Shown piece after piece: positions 47,892-63,923 of a stretch of DNA of 64,000 bases; position 1 is the stretch's first letter, and every line of letters begins with the position of its first letter. Below the pieces are notes generated by a model. That model did not search any database. It was not told where the DNA came from and worked only from the letters and a program-made list of their open reading frames with translations. This stretch comes from Parasphingorhabdus marina DSM 22363 (GTDB lineage: Bacteria > Pseudomonadota > Alphaproteobacteria > Sphingomonadales > Sphingomonadaceae). The position numbers and the translations under genes were made by a program. The stretch is taken from positions 1,364,001-1,428,000 of the forward strand of contig NZ_FSQW01000001.1 of the NCBI RefSeq assembly GCF_900128895.1, written 5' to 3'.

Positions 47892-47977
47892 ATAAGGAGG
47901 CCGATCGCAAACTCGCATTTTCGTTCCCGGCTGCTATAGCTGATCTCGATGAGGCGACAGATGATGGAAGTTTGTAC

Positions 47978-48592
47978 ATGGCTACAGTGACCGCAAAGAC
48001 AGATGGCACAGAGCCGAAACGCGCGCCCAAACTGGGCCAGATCAACCGGACCAAGGAGCAGGTGCTTGACGCCACAGCGGATCTGCTGAAGGAAATTGGC
48101 TATCGCGAACTGAGTATCGACCGCGTGATTGAACGTAGCAGTGTCGCCCGATCGACCATTTACCGGCACTGGAACAATAAAGCCGAGCTGGCGATTGAAG
48201 CCTTTGACCGGGCTTTGGGACCGAATCCGCCAACAGCCAATCTGGGTTCGGTCCGCGAAGATCTGATCGCCACTTACAAACGATTCCCGAAAATTCTGGA
48301 GCGGAGCATTTGGGGCACGATGCTTCCGTCAATCATCGAAGCATCGAAGACGGATCCCGCTTTTGAGGGATTGTTGTCGAACTTTGTCAACGCACGAAAA
48401 GAAAATATGCGTGAATTATTCAATCGCGCCATCGACCGAGGGGAGATCCGCAAGGATACCAATATCGAATGGGCGATCGATACTCTGAGCGGGTTTTTCT
48501 ATCACCGGCTCTTGATGACCGGCGAAAAGCTCAACGAAGACGGCCTTGCCGAATGGCTAGCTGACAGCGTGCTCAGCCAGATCAAAAGCTAA
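47978..48592 (+). CDS. TetR-family transcriptional regulator
   Basis: A 204-residue repressor. The start is the ATG at 47978 with GGAAG 7 bases before it. The helix-turn-helix region is TKEQVLDATADLLKEIGYRE followed by LSIDRVIERSSVARSTIYRHWNNKAEL (about residues 25-70). The C-terminal ligand domain cannot be assigned to a ligand class. It is divergent from the GPH transporter, which it probably controls, and lies 116 bases before the SnoaL-like and SDR genes. Confidence 0.9.
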   Translation: MATVTAKTDGTEPKRAPKLGQINRTKEQVLDATADLLKEIGYRELSIDRVIERSSVARSTIYRHWNNKAELAIEAFDRALGPNPPTANLGSVREDLIATYKRFPKILERSIWGTMLPSIIEASKTDPAFEGLLSNFVNARKENMRELFNRAIDRGEIRKDTNIEWAIDTLSGFFYHRLLMTGEKLNEDGLAEWLADSVLSQIKS

Positions 48593-52107: not shown

Positions 52108-54468
52108 TCAGAACTCGAAGCGAATTGTGCCGCCATAGGTTGCCGGCTGATTGGGATAGCCGGCAATCGTACCATCCTGGACGGCAACCGGGAAAGCTCC
52201 GGTAATATACTCGTCGTCAAAGATGTTGCGGCCCCAGAAATTGACCGACAAGCCATTGCCAAACTCAAGGCCCGCCGCAACATTGACCTCGTTGACAGTC
52301 CGGGAGATGGCGCCGGTATTATTCTCCACGCGCACCCTGCTCTCATGCTGGTAGTCCGTCCGCAGGAAGCCTTTCCAGCCGTTGGCAAATTCGTGATTAT
52401 ATGTGGCCGAGGCGGAAATTGTATGGCTCGGAATACCGGCTGGCCGCGTCCCTGACAGGTCGACGCCCGCCGCGAAATTCGGGAAACTGTCGAACAGCGG
52501 ATCCAGATATGTATAGGCAAAGGTGAAGACGAACGGATCAGCTGGCCGGATCGTGGCATCCAGTTCGAAGCCTTTGACCGACTGTTCGTCGGCGTTCAGG
52601 AAGGCAAAGCCAGTACCGGTAAAGACCGTGCTCTGGAAATCCTCGATCGTCTGATCAAAGGCGGCAAAATTAACCACAAGCGATCCCAGATCGGCCTTGG
52701 CTCCGACTTCATAAACGATCACGTCTTCGGGTGTTGCAAACCGTGTGCCGGGTCTGGTGTCGCGGCTCAGGCTCCAGGACGTGGCTTTGAAGCCGGTAGC
52801 CACACTCGCATAGACATTGAATTCCGGCGTGATTTCATAGGCTACCCGTGCCGTCCAGGTGATCTTGTCGTCCGACGACCGTCCGGTTTCGTTCGCATTC
52901 GGAATCGCGATCAGTCCCGGCAGGAACGCCGCCTGCAGGCCTTGCAGGAACCCGGCAAAGGCAGGCAGAGGCTGTGGCTGGGCAAAAAGCGGTGACAGGT
53001 CCGTGTTGGAGAACGGATCCAGCGGGAGACGGCTCATCAGTTCCACGCGTTTTTTGTCATAGGTATAGTTTGCACCGGCCGTCACTGTCAGCTCGTCGGT
53101 GATGTTGAAGTCCAGCTGACCGAATATCGAGAACGAGTCATTGCTCTGATCAAATGACTCGAAACTGCCGGTTCCGTTGGCGAAAAAGGTTCCGACCGGG
53201 AGCGCCAGGGCGGTTTCCACATCTGACAAAATCGTCGGGGAAACCCCAGCCAGAAGCGTATCGAAGAACGCGCGTCCATCCGGTCCGAAAATCACCTGGG
53301 ATTCGATGTCGATGGTTTCGTGGAAGTAGAAGCCGCCGATCATCCAGTCGAGAAAACCATCCGTGTTCGATGTCAGGCGCAGTTCCTGGGTGAATGTCTT
53401 GTATTCCCGATCCGATGGCGACACACCGAAAACAGCGGCCGAGGAGAAATCGGTATCCACACTCGTGAAGCTTTCATTGCGCCGATAGGATGTGATTGAC
53501 GTCAGGGCAAAGGTGTCGAAATCTACATCTGCCTTGAGCGAAATACCGAGGTTCGAGATTTCCTGTCCGGGCTGGACATCGGCAAATGCCGTATAGCTGA
53601 ACGGATCGGCCGGAACGATGGATCCGCCAATTGCCGGAATGAGAAGCCCGCCAACGCCGGGTTCAATGTTGAGACCCATGCAGCAGACCTCGTCAATTTC
53701 GTCATAGTCCGCTTTCAGCCGAAGTTTTACGTTGTCGGCGGGTTCGATCAGCAGATCGCCCTGGATCGCCCAGCGATCGACATTGTTGAGATCGGTATCG
53801 TTGAACAGGTTCCGGATGTAGCCGTCACGCTGGTTGAAGCTGCCGGAAATGGCCAGCGCCGCCAGGTCATCAGCAATCGGGACATTGACATAGGCCTTAC
53901 CGCGAATCAGGTCAAAATTGCCGTAACTGATTTCCGCGCTGCCGCCGAACTGATATTCAGGTTCTTTTGTCACAACGCTGACCACACCGGCAGAAGCATT
54001 CTTGCCGAACAGGGTCGATTGCGGTCCCCGGAGGACTTCAACGCGCTGAATATTGGGAAGGTCGGAAATCGCAGCGCCCGACCGCGAACGGTAAACGCCA
54101 TCGATGAATACACCGACGGAAGGCTCGATACCATCCGCATTGGCGCCGTTGCCAAAACCGCGAATGAAGAAGTTGGTTGCGACCGCATTCTGCCGGGTCC
54201 GCACTTGCAGAGAGGGGACGACTGATTGCAGGGACGTCAGATCCGTGATCCCCGCGCGCTCAATGGTGAGCGCATCGGTCACAGTCACCGCAACAGGCAC
54301 TTCCTGCAGCGTTTGCTCGCGTTTTGTTGCCGTCACAACGATGATATTTGAATCATCGGCATCTGCAGCATCCCCCTCTGCCACCTGCGCCAATACAGGC
54401 TGGGCCGCGAGCATCAAGGCCACGGTGGATATGGATGAACAAAATCGAACTGCTTGCTTCCTGCGCAT
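52108..54468 (-). CDS. TonB-dependent receptor, probable uptake of island substrate
   Basis: A 786-residue receptor. It has a signal peptide (cleavage near VLAQ, about residue 28), a TonB box (NIIVVTATKREQTLQEVPVAV), a plug with TNFFIRGFGNGANADGIEPS, VGVFIDGVYRSRSG and RVEVLRGPQSTLFGKNASAG, and a barrel ending in GGTIRFEF. This plug subgroup is expanded in sphingomonads that degrade hydrophobic compounds, and members are found in catabolic islands. Iron-siderophore carriage is the alternative. Its position among catabolic genes, and the two palindromes upstream, suggest substrate-responsive uptake. Confidence 0.88.
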   Translation of the reverse strand: MRRKQAVRFCSSISTVALMLAAQPVLAQVAEGDAADADDSNIIVVTATKREQTLQEVPVAVTVTDALTIERAGITDLTSLQSVVPSLQVRTRQNAVATNFFIRGFGNGANADGIEPSVGVFIDGVYRSRSGAAISDLPNIQRVEVLRGPQSTLFGKNASAGVVSVVTKEPEYQFGGSAEISYGNFDLIRGKAYVNVPIADDLAALAISGSFNQRDGYIRNLFNDTDLNNVDRWAIQGDLLIEPADNVKLRLKADYDEIDEVCCMGLNIEPGVGGLLIPAIGGSIVPADPFSYTAFADVQPGQEISNLGISLKADVDFDTFALTSITSYRRNESFTSVDTDFSSAAVFGVSPSDREYKTFTQELRLTSNTDGFLDWMIGGFYFHETIDIESQVIFGPDGRAFFDTLLAGVSPTILSDVETALALPVGTFFANGTGSFESFDQSNDSFSIFGQLDFNITDELTVTAGANYTYDKKRVELMSRLPLDPFSNTDLSPLFAQPQPLPAFAGFLQGLQAAFLPGLIAIPNANETGRSSDDKITWTARVAYEITPEFNVYASVATGFKATSWSLSRDTRPGTRFATPEDVIVYEVGAKADLGSLVVNFAAFDQTIEDFQSTVFTGTGFAFLNADEQSVKGFELDATIRPADPFVFTFAYTYLDPLFDSFPNFAAGVDLSGTRPAGIPSHTISASATYNHEFANGWKGFLRTDYQHESRVRVENNTGAISRTVNEVNVAAGLEFGNGLSVNFWGRNIFDDEYITGAFPVAVQDGTIAGYPNQPATYGGTIRFEF

Positions 54469-54487: not shown

Positions 54488-54504
54488 TTCGGTTTTATAC
54501 CGAA
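54488..54504. promoter_or_regulatory. Perfect 6-5-6 palindrome near the TonB receptor start
   Basis: TTCGGT (54488-54493) and ACCGAA (54499-54504) are perfect arms around TTTAT. It lies 20-36 bases before the receptor ATG on the minus strand, a normal place for a repressor site overlapping the transcription start region. Confidence 0.5.
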
Positions 54505-54553
54505 CTATCTTGTTCTTTATAGAGACCCATTCACAGCGTCAAGTTTTATTCAA

Positions 54554-54581
54554 CACACAGGTATGTTCCCATATTTGTGTG
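54554..54581. promoter_or_regulatory. 12-bp-arm inverted repeat upstream of the TonB receptor
   Basis: CACACAGGTATG (54554-54565) and CATATTTGTGTG (54570-54581) are inverted with two mismatches around TTCC. It lies about 86-113 bases before the receptor ATG, suiting an activator site or a second operator in the 301-base control region. Confidence 0.5.
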
Positions 54582-54769: not shown

Positions 54770-55537
54770 ATGTCCATTTCCCGTTTTGACCTGACCGATC
54801 GTGTCGCAATTGTCACCGGGGGAAGCCGGGGCATCGGGCGATCGATCAGTCTTGCGCTTGCCGAACACGGGGCACATGTCGTGATTTCCAGCCGGAAACA
54901 TGATGCCTGTGAAGCACTGGCTGCAGAGATTGTGGAACGTGGTGGAAAGGCGACGCCCTTCGCAAGCCATGCGGGTGAAGTGGACAGCCTTCGTCGGCTC
55001 ATAACCGATAGTGCTGACCAGCACGGCCGGCTGGATATCCTGGTCAACAATGCCGCGGTCAATCCCTGGTTCGGCCCGGTTGTTGACCTTGAAGAGGAAG
55101 CTTACCAGAAGACCGTAGATGTGAATGTTCGCGGGACGCTGTTTGCATCCACCACCGCAGCCAGGATCATGAAGGAAGCGGGCAGTGGTGTGATTATCAA
55201 TACCAGCTCGATAAATGCCAATCAGCCTGTTGTCGGGCAGGCCATATATTCCATTACCAAGGGTGCAATCGAAACCATGACCCGCTCGCTGGCGAAGGAG
55301 CTGGCACCGTCGGGCATCCGCGTGAATGCGATCCTTCCGGGTGTGACCAAAACCGATGCCCTGCGTGATCTGTTCAGGGACAGCGATGAATTGCCGGCGG
55401 CGATGAAGGCGGCCATTCCGATGGGGCGTCACGCCATGCCCGAGGAAATGGCAGGGGCGGCCGTGTTTCTCGCCTCTGATGCATCCAGTTACATGACGGG
55501 AGCATCACTGGTCATTGATGGCGGCCTGACGATTTAG
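54770..55537 (+). CDS. SDR-family oxidoreductase
   Basis: A 255-residue classical SDR. It shows AIVTGGSRGIGRSISLAL, VISSRKHDAC (basic after the second strand, favouring NADP+), ILVNNAAVNPWFG, NTSSINANQPV and the active site YSITKGAIETMTRSLAKELA. The last part, FLASDASSYMTGASLVIDGG, is typical. It is divergent from the island TonB receptor. The next gene (55552) faces it with only 14 bases between stops. Confidence 0.9.
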   Translation: MSISRFDLTDRVAIVTGGSRGIGRSISLALAEHGAHVVISSRKHDACEALAAEIVERGGKATPFASHAGEVDSLRRLITDSADQHGRLDILVNNAAVNPWFGPVVDLEEEAYQKTVDVNVRGTLFASTTAARIMKEAGSGVIINTSSINANQPVVGQAIYSITKGAIETMTRSLAKELAPSGIRVNAILPGVTKTDALRDLFRDSDELPAAMKAAIPMGRHAMPEEMAGAAVFLASDASSYMTGASLVIDGGLTI

Positions 55538-59698: not shown

Positions 59699-61042
59699 TC
59701 AGGCGGGAGACTTGCCGGCATTCAATCCGAACAGAATGAGGTCACACATGGAATCGGCCATTTGCATCGGCTGAATGGCCGTGTCGGTGGGCAGCCATTT
59801 GGGAATCCAGCCGAAAGCTCCACCGCAAATATGGGTGAGAAGCCGTGTTTCGTAGGGCTTCATATGGCCTTGCTCCACACCCCGGTCGAGCAGCCTGGCG
59901 ACGGTTTTGTTCTGCTCGTTCGCGCGCCGGTGCAATCGGTCGAGCACGTCTTTGGGCAACGCCTCGAAACCGGGCTGTGGCATCAACGGTGCCAGATCAC
60001 CGGTTTGCGCCTGAATATTGAGATGTGCGTTGATCATGCCGGCTTCCAGGCCATTGTCCCCGCTTTGCTCAGACAATTCGATAAACTTGTCATACAGTTC
60101 AAATGAGCGTTCATAACAACTCGAAACCAGATCATTCTTGTCTTCCAGATAGTGATAGACGGCGCCTTTGGTCAGACCCATGACCGCCGCGATCTCATCA
60201 AGCGATGTCGCCTCTATCCCGTTCCGGTTGAATAGACGAGAGGCGGTTGCGAGCAATTGGGTTATCTTGAAGCTCGAAGATTCCTTTCTGTCGAAAATAT
60301 TGTCCAGTTTCGGCTGAAACATGTCGACCGAGAAGTGACAACGGAAGTTGAATGACCGGTCTGTTGAAATGCCCTGATCAAGCAGATTGATCATCGCGTC
60401 CGATGTACGTCGCCGTAGCTCGGCACCGTGCTGCTCGTTCGACCAGTTGGGAAGCAATTGAGACCATGCAAGCATTCCGACTATTGCGTGCACGACAATC
60501 TCGCTGTTGCAGTGACGAATGCTGCCATCATCAAATCCCTGCTCAATAAAATGCTTCAAACTCTTGATATTGCGGTCATTTGCTGCATGAATGATCTTCG
60601 CCTTGTCCGGCTCGAGCGAGTCTATCTCGCTCAGAACAGCTACTGGCGCCCGATCGGGTGCGAGCGACAGCCGGACATATTCGAGGACGCGATCCAGCCC
60701 GGATTCTGCTTCGCTGGCGGTGGCCAGATCTTCGGCTGCTACATCGCAGGTGCGGGAATAGCACTGGAAAACCAGTTCGCTGCGGTTGTTCACATAATAG
60801 TAGATTGTCGCGCGGGCGAGATCGAGAACATCGGCAATGACGGCAATACTGGTGGCCGAGATGCCCCGCGCGTTGAACAGGGCGGTTGCTCCATTGATCA
60901 GTTCTTCTTTCTTGGCGGCCCGCTTGCTGGGACGGCCACGTTTTTTGGGTTTTGCCTCTGCGGAATCGATTGACTGCGGGTCGTTCTTGCCGACCGGAAC
61001 GGGATTGCCCGACTTGCTCGACGACTGGTCAAATACATTCAC
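59699..61042 (-). CDS. Fused double-TetR transcriptional regulator
   Basis: A 447-residue protein containing two complete TetR-like units. The first DNA-binding region is at about 45-92 (EELINGATALFNARGISATS, then LDLARATIYYYVNNRSELVF) and its ligand domain runs to about 230. The second starts at about 258 (ITQLLATASRLFNRNGIEATS, then GLTKGAVYHYLEDKNDLVSS) with its own ligand domain to the end. A basic AT-hook-like segment KKRGRPSKRAAKK (33-45) precedes the first. Usual TetR proteins are about 200 residues and dimerise, so this is a covalent pseudo-dimer or a four-headed dimer. It lies 9 bases after the acyl-CoA synthetase gene, as last gene of a leftward operon. Confidence 0.9.
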   Translation of the reverse strand: MNVFDQSSSKSGNPVPVGKNDPQSIDSAEAKPKKRGRPSKRAAKKEELINGATALFNARGISATSIAVIADVLDLARATIYYYVNNRSELVFQCYSRTCDVAAEDLATASEAESGLDRVLEYVRLSLAPDRAPVAVLSEIDSLEPDKAKIIHAANDRNIKSLKHFIEQGFDDGSIRHCNSEIVVHAIVGMLAWSQLLPNWSNEQHGAELRRRTSDAMINLLDQGISTDRSFNFRCHFSVDMFQPKLDNIFDRKESSSFKITQLLATASRLFNRNGIEATSLDEIAAVMGLTKGAVYHYLEDKNDLVSSCYERSFELYDKFIELSEQSGDNGLEAGMINAHLNIQAQTGDLAPLMPQPGFEALPKDVLDRLHRRANEQNKTVARLLDRGVEQGHMKPYETRLLTHICGGAFGWIPKWLPTDTAIQPMQMADSMCDLILFGLNAGKSPA

Positions 61043-61051
61043 GCCATTGCC

Positions 61052-62506
61052 CTAGCTTTCTTTTTTGAGCCGCTCTTCGCGCAGCTTTGACCGCCTTACC
61101 TTGCCAGCCGTATCGCGTAAAGCATGGTCGACAAACTCATAGCTGCGCGGTCTCTTGTAAGCCACCAGCCGTGTTGCGACAAATTCTTTCAAGTCTTGTT
61201 CCGCAAGTGCCTTTCCGGGTTCAATGATCGCGTGAATGGTTGCTCCGAGGTCATCGTTCGGCAGTCCGATTACGGCACAGGATTTGACTTCGGAATGCTC
61301 CTCAAGGACTCCTTCAATTTCTGCAGGATAGACATTGGATCCGCCAACAAGGATCATGTCCGAACGGCGATCGGCAAGGTAAAGAAATCCGTCTTCATCA
61401 AAATGCCCCATGTCGCCAAGTGTCTGCCAGCCGTCCCTGGATTCCACTTCCGCTCCGACATAGCGATAGGTCTCGCCTCTTTCCGGGTCGGGGCGCATGT
61501 AGACTTCCCCGATCGTCCCAGGCGGTGCTTCCTTGCCATCATCGTCAAGAATCTTGATTTCGCCAGCAAACACGCGTCCTACCGAGCCACGATGCGCTAG
61601 CCATTCGGTGCCGGTGATCACCGTGCCCGCCATGCCTTCGGTTGCGGCGTAGAGTTCCCAGATGACATCGCCACCCAGCCAGTTGATCCAGGCTTCCTTG
61701 AGCCAGGCAGGGCAGGGCGCGGCGAGGTGCCAGACGGTCTTCAGTGACGACACGTCATATTGCGCCTTGATCTCGTCTTCCAGTCGCCAGATCCGGCCCA
61801 TCATTGTCGGGACCAGATAGATCCAGCTGGCCTTGTGTCTGGCGACATTGGCCAGCACCGCCTCGGCATCGAAGCGGGGCATGATCACCATGTGCGCACC
61901 AGCCGTGACGGCCGCTATCGCTGTGACAAACGGGGCGTTATGATAGAGCGGGCCCGGCATGATGGCGACATCGTCCGCCGTGATGCGCCATCCGGCGGCA
62001 GTTTCGAATTCGCACCAGGCGGGTGCGGTGGCCAATATCAGCTTTGGCCGTCCTGTTGACCCCCCGGATGTCGGCGCTTTCCAGCAGGATGTCACAAGTT
62101 CAGGCAGTGCACTGTCGTCGTCCTGACTGTCCCGAAGTTCAACATAGGAAACCGTCTCCGGTTCAATTTCGATATCGTCATTGGCGATGACAATTTTTGA
62201 TCCGGCCAGCGCGATGATTTCCTCGATTTCCGGTCGAGGGAGGCGCGAGGACACCGGTTGCGGTGTGGCTCCTGCTTTCCAGCAGGCGAAACAGCTTTCG
62301 ATGAAATCCAGGCCGTTGGGCAGCGCGATGGTGACCATGTCATCCAGTTGCACGCCGCGAGCGATCAGCGCTCTGGCGGCCCGGTTTGTCCTCCGGTCGA
62401 GTTCTTCCCAGGTTACGCTTTCATTGTGGTCGGAAAGCGCCAGCGCATCCGGCTTGTTGGAGCGGTGGTGGGCCAGCAATCTCGCAAGAGACAGCTGATC
62501 GGTCAT
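61052..62506 (-). CDS. Acyl-CoA synthetase (AMP-forming)
   Basis: About 484 residues. The start at 62506 (MTDQLSLARLL) is chosen because its ATG overlaps the preceding stop as ATGA; three in-frame residues earlier is possible. The P-loop reads PTSGGSTGRPKLILAT. The central motif is YAATEGMAGTVITG, and the hinge is LADRRSDMILVGGSNVYPAEIE. The catalytic Lys is in DTAGKVRRSKLREE. It is somewhat shorter than typical members and clearly a different subgroup from the synthetase at 50394, so a different acid is likely. It is the middle gene of the hydrolase-synthetase-double-TetR operon. Confidence 0.9.
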   Translation of the reverse strand: MTDQLSLARLLAHHRSNKPDALALSDHNESVTWEELDRRTNRAARALIARGVQLDDMVTIALPNGLDFIESCFACWKAGATPQPVSSRLPRPEIEEIIALAGSKIVIANDDIEIEPETVSYVELRDSQDDDSALPELVTSCWKAPTSGGSTGRPKLILATAPAWCEFETAAGWRITADDVAIMPGPLYHNAPFVTAIAAVTAGAHMVIMPRFDAEAVLANVARHKASWIYLVPTMMGRIWRLEDEIKAQYDVSSLKTVWHLAAPCPAWLKEAWINWLGGDVIWELYAATEGMAGTVITGTEWLAHRGSVGRVFAGEIKILDDDGKEAPPGTIGEVYMRPDPERGETYRYVGAEVESRDGWQTLGDMGHFDEDGFLYLADRRSDMILVGGSNVYPAEIEGVLEEHSEVKSCAVIGLPNDDLGATIHAIIEPGKALAEQDLKEFVATRLVAYKRPRSYEFVDHALRDTAGKVRRSKLREERLKKES

Positions 62507-63651
62507 TGCACGCACTCGAAAATCTTCTCGCAGAGCAAGGCATCGCGAGGATCGCCTACCGTGCTGTCACCCATCTGGTTCAGGACATAGCCGATCCCGA
62601 CGCCATGGCCGATATCCAGGCAGCCGAAGGATCCGCCCCAGCCGGAATGACCAACGGTTGTGTCATGTGGGCCGTACATGTTCATGATGTTGCCAGACAT
62701 GCCTTGCCGCCACATGGCGGGCTGGCCCAGCAATATGTCCACACGGTCTGTCTGCAGTTCGCACATGGCCTCGACCGTTTCAGGTTGCATCAGGGTAACG
62801 CAGTCCAGTGTGCCGCCATTGGCCGCAGCGCCATACAGGCGCGCCAAACCCATCGCCGTTGCATGCCCGTTCCCGGCCGGAATTTGCGCGGCTCGCCAGG
62901 CGCGCTGGTTGGGCAAGGTCGGTTCCATATCGGGGTTGGTGACGGCAATGACCGCTTCGGGTGGCGCAGCGGCCGGATCAGATTGCAGGGGTGGTTGAAG
63001 CGGGGACGGAATCAGCGAAGAAACACGATGTTCCTCGCTTTCCGGCAGGCCAATATAGACATCGGCATTCATCGGGCCCGCCAGGCTCTCGGCCAGATAA
63101 TCACCGGGAAGCAAGCCCGTTGCGCGGCGGATAAGTTCGCCGGCAAGAAACCCGTAGGTCATCGCATGATAAGAATTCTTGGTGCCCGGTTCCCACATCG
63201 GGGCCTGCTTCTCGAGGCGTCCGATAACTGTATCCCAGTCATAAAATTCCTCCAGTGTCGTTGGTTCTTCAATGCCGGGCAGACCAGCCTGGTGGGACAT
63301 GAGCTGCGAGACGGTGGTCTTTTCCTTGCCGTTGCAGCCATATTCCGGCCAGTAGTCAGAGACCAGCGCATCATAATCCAGCTTGCCCTGATCGACGAGA
63401 GTGGCGACTTCCAGAGCCGCGACTCCCTTGGTGGCGGACCAGATATTGACCAGCGTGTCCTTGGTCCACGGTATGGTGCGCTCTGCATCGCGCCAGCCGG
63501 CGTGCAGATCGACGACCAGCTCGCCCTTGACATAGACTGCGAGCGAGGAACCCAGTTCCCGATAGGCGTCATCCCGTTCAAAATTATGCGCGAATGCATC
63601 TTTCACACTCTCAAAGCCAGGCTTTGCAAATCCGTGAATTTCGGTGGCCAT
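62503..63651 (-). CDS. Beta-lactamase-fold serine hydrolase, EstB-like
   Basis: About 382 residues from the ATG at 63651 (MATEIHGFAKPGFESV), preferred because GGAGAG lies 5 to 10 bases before it. The class-C beta-lactamase/EstB fold is shown by the nucleophile motif WSATKG (S72-xx-K75), SHQAGLPG, and YHAMTYGFLAGELIRRATG with the conserved Tyr. It also has GNGHATAMGLARLYGA. No signal peptide is visible, so it is probably cytoplasmic and an esterase rather than an antibiotic-degrading enzyme. It heads the leftward operon with an acyl-CoA synthetase and the double-TetR regulator. Confidence 0.88.
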   Translation of the reverse strand: MATEIHGFAKPGFESVKDAFAHNFERDDAYRELGSSLAVYVKGELVVDLHAGWRDAERTIPWTKDTLVNIWSATKGVAALEVATLVDQGKLDYDALVSDYWPEYGCNGKEKTTVSQLMSHQAGLPGIEEPTTLEEFYDWDTVIGRLEKQAPMWEPGTKNSYHAMTYGFLAGELIRRATGLLPGDYLAESLAGPMNADVYIGLPESEEHRVSSLIPSPLQPPLQSDPAAAPPEAVIAVTNPDMEPTLPNQRAWRAAQIPAGNGHATAMGLARLYGAAANGGTLDCVTLMQPETVEAMCELQTDRVDILLGQPAMWRQGMSGNIMNMYGPHDTTVGHSGWGGSFGCLDIGHGVGIGYVLNQMGDSTVGDPRDALLCEKIFECVQ

Positions 63652-63729
63652 CTGTCTCTCCATCGCTGTTTGCGCGCCGGGAATTTCTGTGTCCGCATGC
63701 GTCACTGGACTTCTTGGTAACGCGGCAAA

Positions 63730-63742
63730 TTGATTCAATCAA
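63730..63742. promoter_or_regulatory. Palindrome upstream of the EstB-like operon
   Basis: TTGATT and AATCAA are perfect arms around a single C, 79-91 bases before the EstB-like start. TTGATT is also the half-site of the wide inverted repeat at 38807-38850. This gap also precedes the SDR at 63924 on the other strand. Confidence 0.4.
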
Positions 63743-63923
63743 CAGTAATATCGATAAACATACCTTAATGTCGAATAAATATTGACAGTCATGCAATCCG
63801 CTCTAGGATCGGGCCGCAAAGAAGCCGATTCCGGGAATTACGTCCGAAATATTCGGGCGGATTATCGGGAAACAGGTGAGCCATTTATGGGGAGCGGGAG
63901 GAAATTTTCCCAGTGATGTCAAT

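Follow-up and report, generated by a model that had tools for sequence, protein, structure and literature searches.

A natural double-TetR regulator in Parasphingorhabdus marina with a predicted asymmetric operator

Introduction

The 64,000-nucleotide stretch of Parasphingorhabdus marina DSM 22363 analyzed here (contig NZ_FSQW01000001.1, positions 1,364,001–1,428,000; hereafter the window, to which coordinates refer unless stated) contains a gene whose product, dTetR, appears to carry two TetR units in one chain. A sequence-only reading had taken it as a fusion with an AT-hook-like leader that could read an asymmetric operator or two different ligands. Is the fusion real and, if so, how would two unlike units in one chain be used on DNA, and which genes would they control?

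TetR proteins such as AibR, PfmR, KstR2 and DarR have the same fold as each dTetR unit but are single units of ~200 residues that form ordinary homodimers; several of them answer acyl-CoA type ligands (AibR with isovaleryl-CoA). In the engineered single-chain Tet repressor, two TetR units are covalently joined by a designed linker and the one chain is functional; that protein is artificial, whereas dTetR is natural and its units have strongly diverged. A subfamily of double TetR regulators has been published and the design, as in Mce3R, is rare but known, so that the fusion is less exceptional than it first seemed. We found only one double TetR regulator with a solved structure, Mce3R (Rv1963c) of Mycobacterium tuberculosis, and work on operator choice covers a few mycobacteria. 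In actinomycetes, 204 double-TFR proteins have been predicted (cited in PMC11667970); they too have two TetR units per chain and are likened to dTetR by architecture, the dTetR family being proteobacterial. Our literature search, whose coverage may have gaps, found Mce3R and no description of the dTetR family.

Results

The dTetR open reading frame (59699–61042, minus strand) runs uninterrupted from a GTG start and encodes 447 amino acids. Pfam TetR_N (PF00440) matched it twice, in the first unit, M1 (residues 48–93; 60764–60901, minus strand; 34.9 bits), and in the second unit, M2 (residues 263–307; 60122–60256, minus strand; 46.7 bits), both above the curated cut-off of 24 bits that defines TetR/AcrR membership and in close agreement with the helix-turn-helix (HTH) positions of about 45–92 and 258–305 proposed earlier. 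With the two TetR_C_24 stretches also found by Pfam, the chain holds two full TetR units, each with an HTH and a C-terminal domain, as in a double-TFR protein. Alignment and structural model place the linker between them at about residues 229–251 (60290–60358, minus strand). None of the NCBIfam models names dTetR at its cut-off.

An error of sequencing or assembly that joined two genes could also produce such a chain. A related-locus scan of GTDB genomes with a four-sequence alignment of doubles as the query returned 54 loci, from which we translated 46 full-length orthologues (25–60% identity) and aligned them with dTetR in 47 rows. Their hosts include Sphingopyxis (60% identity), Phenylobacterium, Caulobacter, Novosphingobium, Sphingorhabdus, Steroidobacter and two gammaproteobacterial metagenome-assembled genomes. 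The choice of query mattered: the single dTetR protein gave no matches in the related-locus search, and seven distant doubles, when aligned, were too diverse to serve as its query. Full-length double relatives occur within the same genus and order, and a profile of seven doubles matched about 120 double proteins at near-full length across 396 Sphingomonadales genomes. Every complete sequence of the 47-row alignment retains both HTHs, and neither is degenerate in dTetR. The 46 orthologues, which come from independent assemblies, exclude an assembly-error origin, and together with the ~120 doubles of the order they leave the artefact a vanishingly small probability. In a plasmid search for dTetR, all matches were below 60% identity, and the pieces listed for them lay in stretches of single-TetR length.

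Many of the ~120 Sphingomonadales matches belong to a second, widespread double-TetR subfamily, which was seen in seven loci (L019–L022, L024, L028 and L032) besides many genomes of the order. Its second HTH is highly conserved (RGYRGASVNRIA...NVTKGSFYHH).

The two units of dTetR are clearly unlike. Over the 47 sequences, the consensus of the recognition helix is LSRxALYYYV in M1 and ATKGAVYHYF in M2, and in a tree of the halves the M1 units of the dTetR family form one clade and the M2 units another. The M2 units of the sampled double subfamilies cluster together with a support of 0.95, while the node uniting the M1 units of both double families is weak (0.38). The separate clades and the M2 grouping show that the units diverged before the dTetR family spread; a recent internal duplication is not supported by this tree, the weak M1 node notwithstanding.

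The basic leader KKRGRPSKR (residues 33–41; 60920–60946, minus strand), previously regarded as AT-hook-like and distinctive, is not conserved, whereas a basic arm in general is. A basic arm is present in 36 of the 47 aligned sequences and the GRP of the RGRP leader in only 10; among eight single TetRs of the same genome that we checked, one has GRP. In Mce3R, R9–R11 and R15 are positioned at the DNA, the Arg9–11 region making contact with it (PMC11667970). The leader of dTetR is best taken for the usual basic arm of a TetR protein. An AT-hook protein would have a conserved GRP core with basic flanks; dTetR has one, but with GRP in 10/47 that assignment was dropped.

We next consider how the two units would be arranged. 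The AlphaFold2 model of dTetR, built with the 47-row alignment, has a pLDDT of 91.7 and a pTM of 0.88, with low confidence limited to about the first 30 residues; it describes the fold and not the oligomeric state. Its best match in the PDB, by VIA-align and in agreement with Foldseek, is Mce3R on DNA (9b7y; Z 24.2, rmsd 4.4, 350 residues), the alignment spanning residues 37–439 and thus both halves together, and every other structural match is a single TetR with a Z below 16. Each Mce3R chain pairs its own two units about an asymmetric four-helix bundle, its two unlike HTHs sit on a non-palindromic site, and it has a single ligand pocket (PMC11667970). One could suppose instead that two chains of dTetR dimerize M1 to M1 and M2 to M2, giving two symmetric dimers that bind two palindromes and possibly two ligands, since ordinary TetRs dimerize symmetrically and both units here are complete, each with its own C-terminal domain. 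However, in the only double TetR of solved structure M1 pairs with M2 of the same chain, the M1 unit of Mce3R does not bind by itself (PMC11667970), the dTetR model aligns to the Mce3R chain across both halves, and the conserved site described below is non-palindromic; we therefore regard symmetric dimers as an unlikely arrangement. Mce3R-like pairing of M1 with M2 inside one chain is most likely from the model. Of the intramolecular dimer suggested earlier, the alignment to Mce3R over both halves bears out the overall architecture, and the pairing itself is a prediction. By analogy, one shared ligand pocket seems likelier than two ligands.

dTetR is the third of three genes on the minus strand. 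The first encodes a hydrolase, a carboxylesterase of the beta-lactamase fold (62503–63738, minus strand), as judged from domain and PDB matches; it is closest to the carboxylesterase 5gmx (E 1.8e-98), matches NCBIfam LipL below the cut-off, and may in truth start at a later Met near 63663. The second encodes an AMP-binding acyl-CoA ligase (61052–62515, minus strand; Pfam). Because the genes lie on the same strand with a 13-bp overlap followed by a 9-bp gap, they likely form one operon, as the sequence-only reading had it with its CoA synthetase and hydrolase. A homologue of the hydrolase is linked to dTetR in most of the orthologous loci.

Divergent from the hydrolase is an operon of an SDR, an enoyl-CoA hydratase and an acyl-CoA dehydrogenase (locus L041), with P450 and flavin monooxygenase genes further upstream. 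Just past the end of the window this operon has two acyl-CoA dehydrogenase units fused into one 791-aa protein (L041:3447–5822), the second of which is closest in the PDB to 4x28, titled acyl-CoA dehydrogenase, a mycobacterial cholesterol side-chain enzyme. A 260-aa open reading frame flanked by the fused dehydrogenase and a WS/DGAT gene (L041:5819–6601) has no Pfam or NCBIfam match. Elsewhere in the island, Pfam identifies a TonB-dependent receptor (52108–54468, minus strand) and a divergent SDR oxidoreductase (54770–55537, plus strand), both predicted targets of dTetR; in relatives, dTetR often has a TonB receptor gene as its divergent neighbour. The same island also has an ordinary single TetR regulator (47972–48592, plus strand; TetR_N at genome positions 1412065–1412199). 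It is a plausible inference that the substrate of the island is a lipid-like or steroid-like ester and that the inducer is a CoA-ester.

Upstream regions of dTetR orthologues share the motif TTYGACA-N5-GTATG, which was first spotted by eye and tested afterwards. With up to two mismatches it has 127 matches in the orthologous loci vs 26 in the reversed sequence. The matrix made from 69 sites (36 loci) has two strong halves that differ from each other and lie about 10–11 bp apart, the right half GTATG being conserved as strongly as the left; the correlation of the matrix with its own reverse complement is 0.11 at the centre, with no evident palindromy. In most relatives, two direct copies lie upstream of the regulator or hydrolase gene, and 29 of the 33 spacings between successive sites are 54–57 bp in direct orientation. 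A looser pattern gives 22 pairs at 48–60 bp in the loci, none in the reversed sequence and none in six other distance bins. No site pair was found near the gene in ten distant members (L119, L122, L124–L127, L129–L131 and L135). A weaker conserved element resembling GATAA or CATAA lies at a fixed distance, about 20–25 bp after the operator start, in the orthologous loci; it may belong to the promoter or extend the operator.

The strict double site occurs in 5 of 396 Sphingomonadales genomes, each time just upstream of dTetR, and two of the five (G376 and G135) were outside the loci used for motif discovery. In 385 genomes of the class, the looser pattern gave three matches; one, in a held-out genome (G573), is beside a dTetR gene, and the other two are in loci without a dTetR match and look like chance.

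The left half TTYGACA resembles the −35 hexamer TTGACA, and of the sigma-70-like sequences at the window site 63759 one overlaps it and one lies next to it, so that part of the conservation could be that of a promoter. The motif as a whole might accordingly be a promoter element of the regulator and its neighbours, with dTetR binding elsewhere. Yet the GTATG half is as conserved as the left half, the pairs are direct and at fixed spacing, among the 396 genomes every strict double site is next to a dTetR gene, and the P. marina genome has few copies of the strict single motif, unlike those of a general promoter element. We give the promoter explanation a low probability and consider TTYGACA-N5-GTATG the probable operator of dTetR. 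The comparison of sites, together with the precedent of Mce3R, thus favours the asymmetric operator that had been proposed; the palindromes of the island, the target once suggested for a gel shift or DAP-seq, are not the predicted target, since the conserved site is non-palindromic.

In the window, which was excluded from training of the 69-site matrix, the two best-scoring of all positions are 63759–63775 and 54549–54565. The former, TTCGACATTAAGGTATG (minus strand), is an exact motif with the top score and lies between the hydrolase operon and the divergent SDR/enoyl-CoA hydratase/acyl-CoA dehydrogenase operon; the latter, TTCAACACACAGGTATG (plus strand), has the second-best score and lies between the TonB receptor and the SDR. 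These are the only two exact matches of TTYRACAN5GTATG in the 3.55-Mb genome; both predicted operators are in the island, each between divergent operons. One-mismatch matches in the genome did not exceed the reversed-pattern control, so we claim no wider dTetR regulon.

The window sites are mostly single, unlike the strong pairs of most relatives. A second strong copy was sought beside 63759 and none was found. Exactly 56 bp from 54549 is a possible degenerate partner (54493–54510, plus strand), a weak site with a score of 1.3 compared with −1.0 for the 95% level of a random best-of-62. A weak sigma-70-like sequence of the hydrolase operon (63747–63774, minus strand; 9/12 of the consensus) overlaps the operator, and another, TTGACA-16-TAGGAT (63782–63809, plus strand; 10/12), belongs to the divergent SDR operon. 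The hydrolase intergenic region also contains a short palindrome, TTGATTCAATCAA, at about 63731–63745 near the hydrolase start. It was set aside as a dTetR site, being outside the motif common to the relatives, and is possibly the site of another regulator.

Variation of the operator hints at how its halves are shared between the HTHs. Position 3 (C or T) tracks residues of M1 best and position 17 (G or C) tracks those of M2 best, and GTATC replaces GTATG in two loci with a site pair from a clade with altered M2 (TKR for TKG). The variant pair, TTTTACA-N5-GTATC, was seen 51–53 bp apart in L120 (1450 and 1501 past the dTetR start) and at about 2705–2758 past the dTetR start in L128, of the same TKR clade. 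These patterns would fit M1 reading the left half and M2 the right, the signal being weak and the sequences related.

Discussion

We conclude that dTetR is a natural double-TetR regulator of known design from a separate proteobacterial lineage, with a clear predicted operator. The explanation we consider quite probable is that of an Mce3R-like single-chain regulator whose unlike units pair intramolecularly and place two HTHs on the asymmetric site TTYGACA-N5-GTATG. The predicted fold suggests that one chain folds so that its units pair like the subunits of an ordinary TetR dimer, and the two HTHs would occupy one site, with halves about one helical turn apart. Where two direct sites lie about 55 bp apart, as in most relatives, two chains may act together. 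From the positions of the operators and the neighbouring genes, dTetR would control its own hydrolase/acyl-CoA ligase/regulator operon, and also the divergent SDR/enoyl-CoA hydratase/acyl-CoA dehydrogenase operon and the TonB receptor/SDR pair, most likely as a repressor that is released by a CoA-ester or an ester-derived intermediate of a lipid-like substrate.

The likeness to Mce3R, a double-TFR repressor, extends beyond two TetR units per chain to an operator that is predicted here to be non-palindromic, a pair of sites in that region, a neighbourhood of lipid-metabolism genes and a regulator gene inside its own predicted regulon. On the other hand, Mce3R is from another phylum and only about 14–16% identical to dTetR, and its mce3/mel2-type regulon, the mark of a strict orthologue, is replaced here by hydrolase, acyl-CoA ligase, SDR and TonB receptor genes in place of mce or mel2 genes. 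In a profile comparison, the best score of dTetR's M2 is with the first Mce3R unit, and a common fusion event is therefore not established. The operators, compared by layout, also differ: direct repeats of 54–57 bp from start to start in dTetR relatives vs two 25-bp sites with 53 bp between them in Mce3R (PMC11667970).

A bolder version of our reading, which we offer tentatively and think rather less likely than not to hold in full, is that this proteobacterial lineage has a direction-sensitive operator, in which direct-repeat asymmetric sites about five helical turns apart would be bridged by two tandem chains, unlike the C2-symmetric dimer of Mce3R, and in which each HTH would have co-evolved with its half-site (M1 with TTYGACA; M2 with GTATG, or GTATC where M2 changed).

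The family, from Alphaproteobacteria and a small number of other proteobacteria, holds dozens of naturally occurring operator/HTH combinations, with which both the reading of half-sites and the direct pairing are directly testable. Synthetic biology could use asymmetric TetR proteins of the single-chain type as directional parts, and for P. marina the analysis offers a predicted regulon for an uncharacterized catabolic island of the lipid type.
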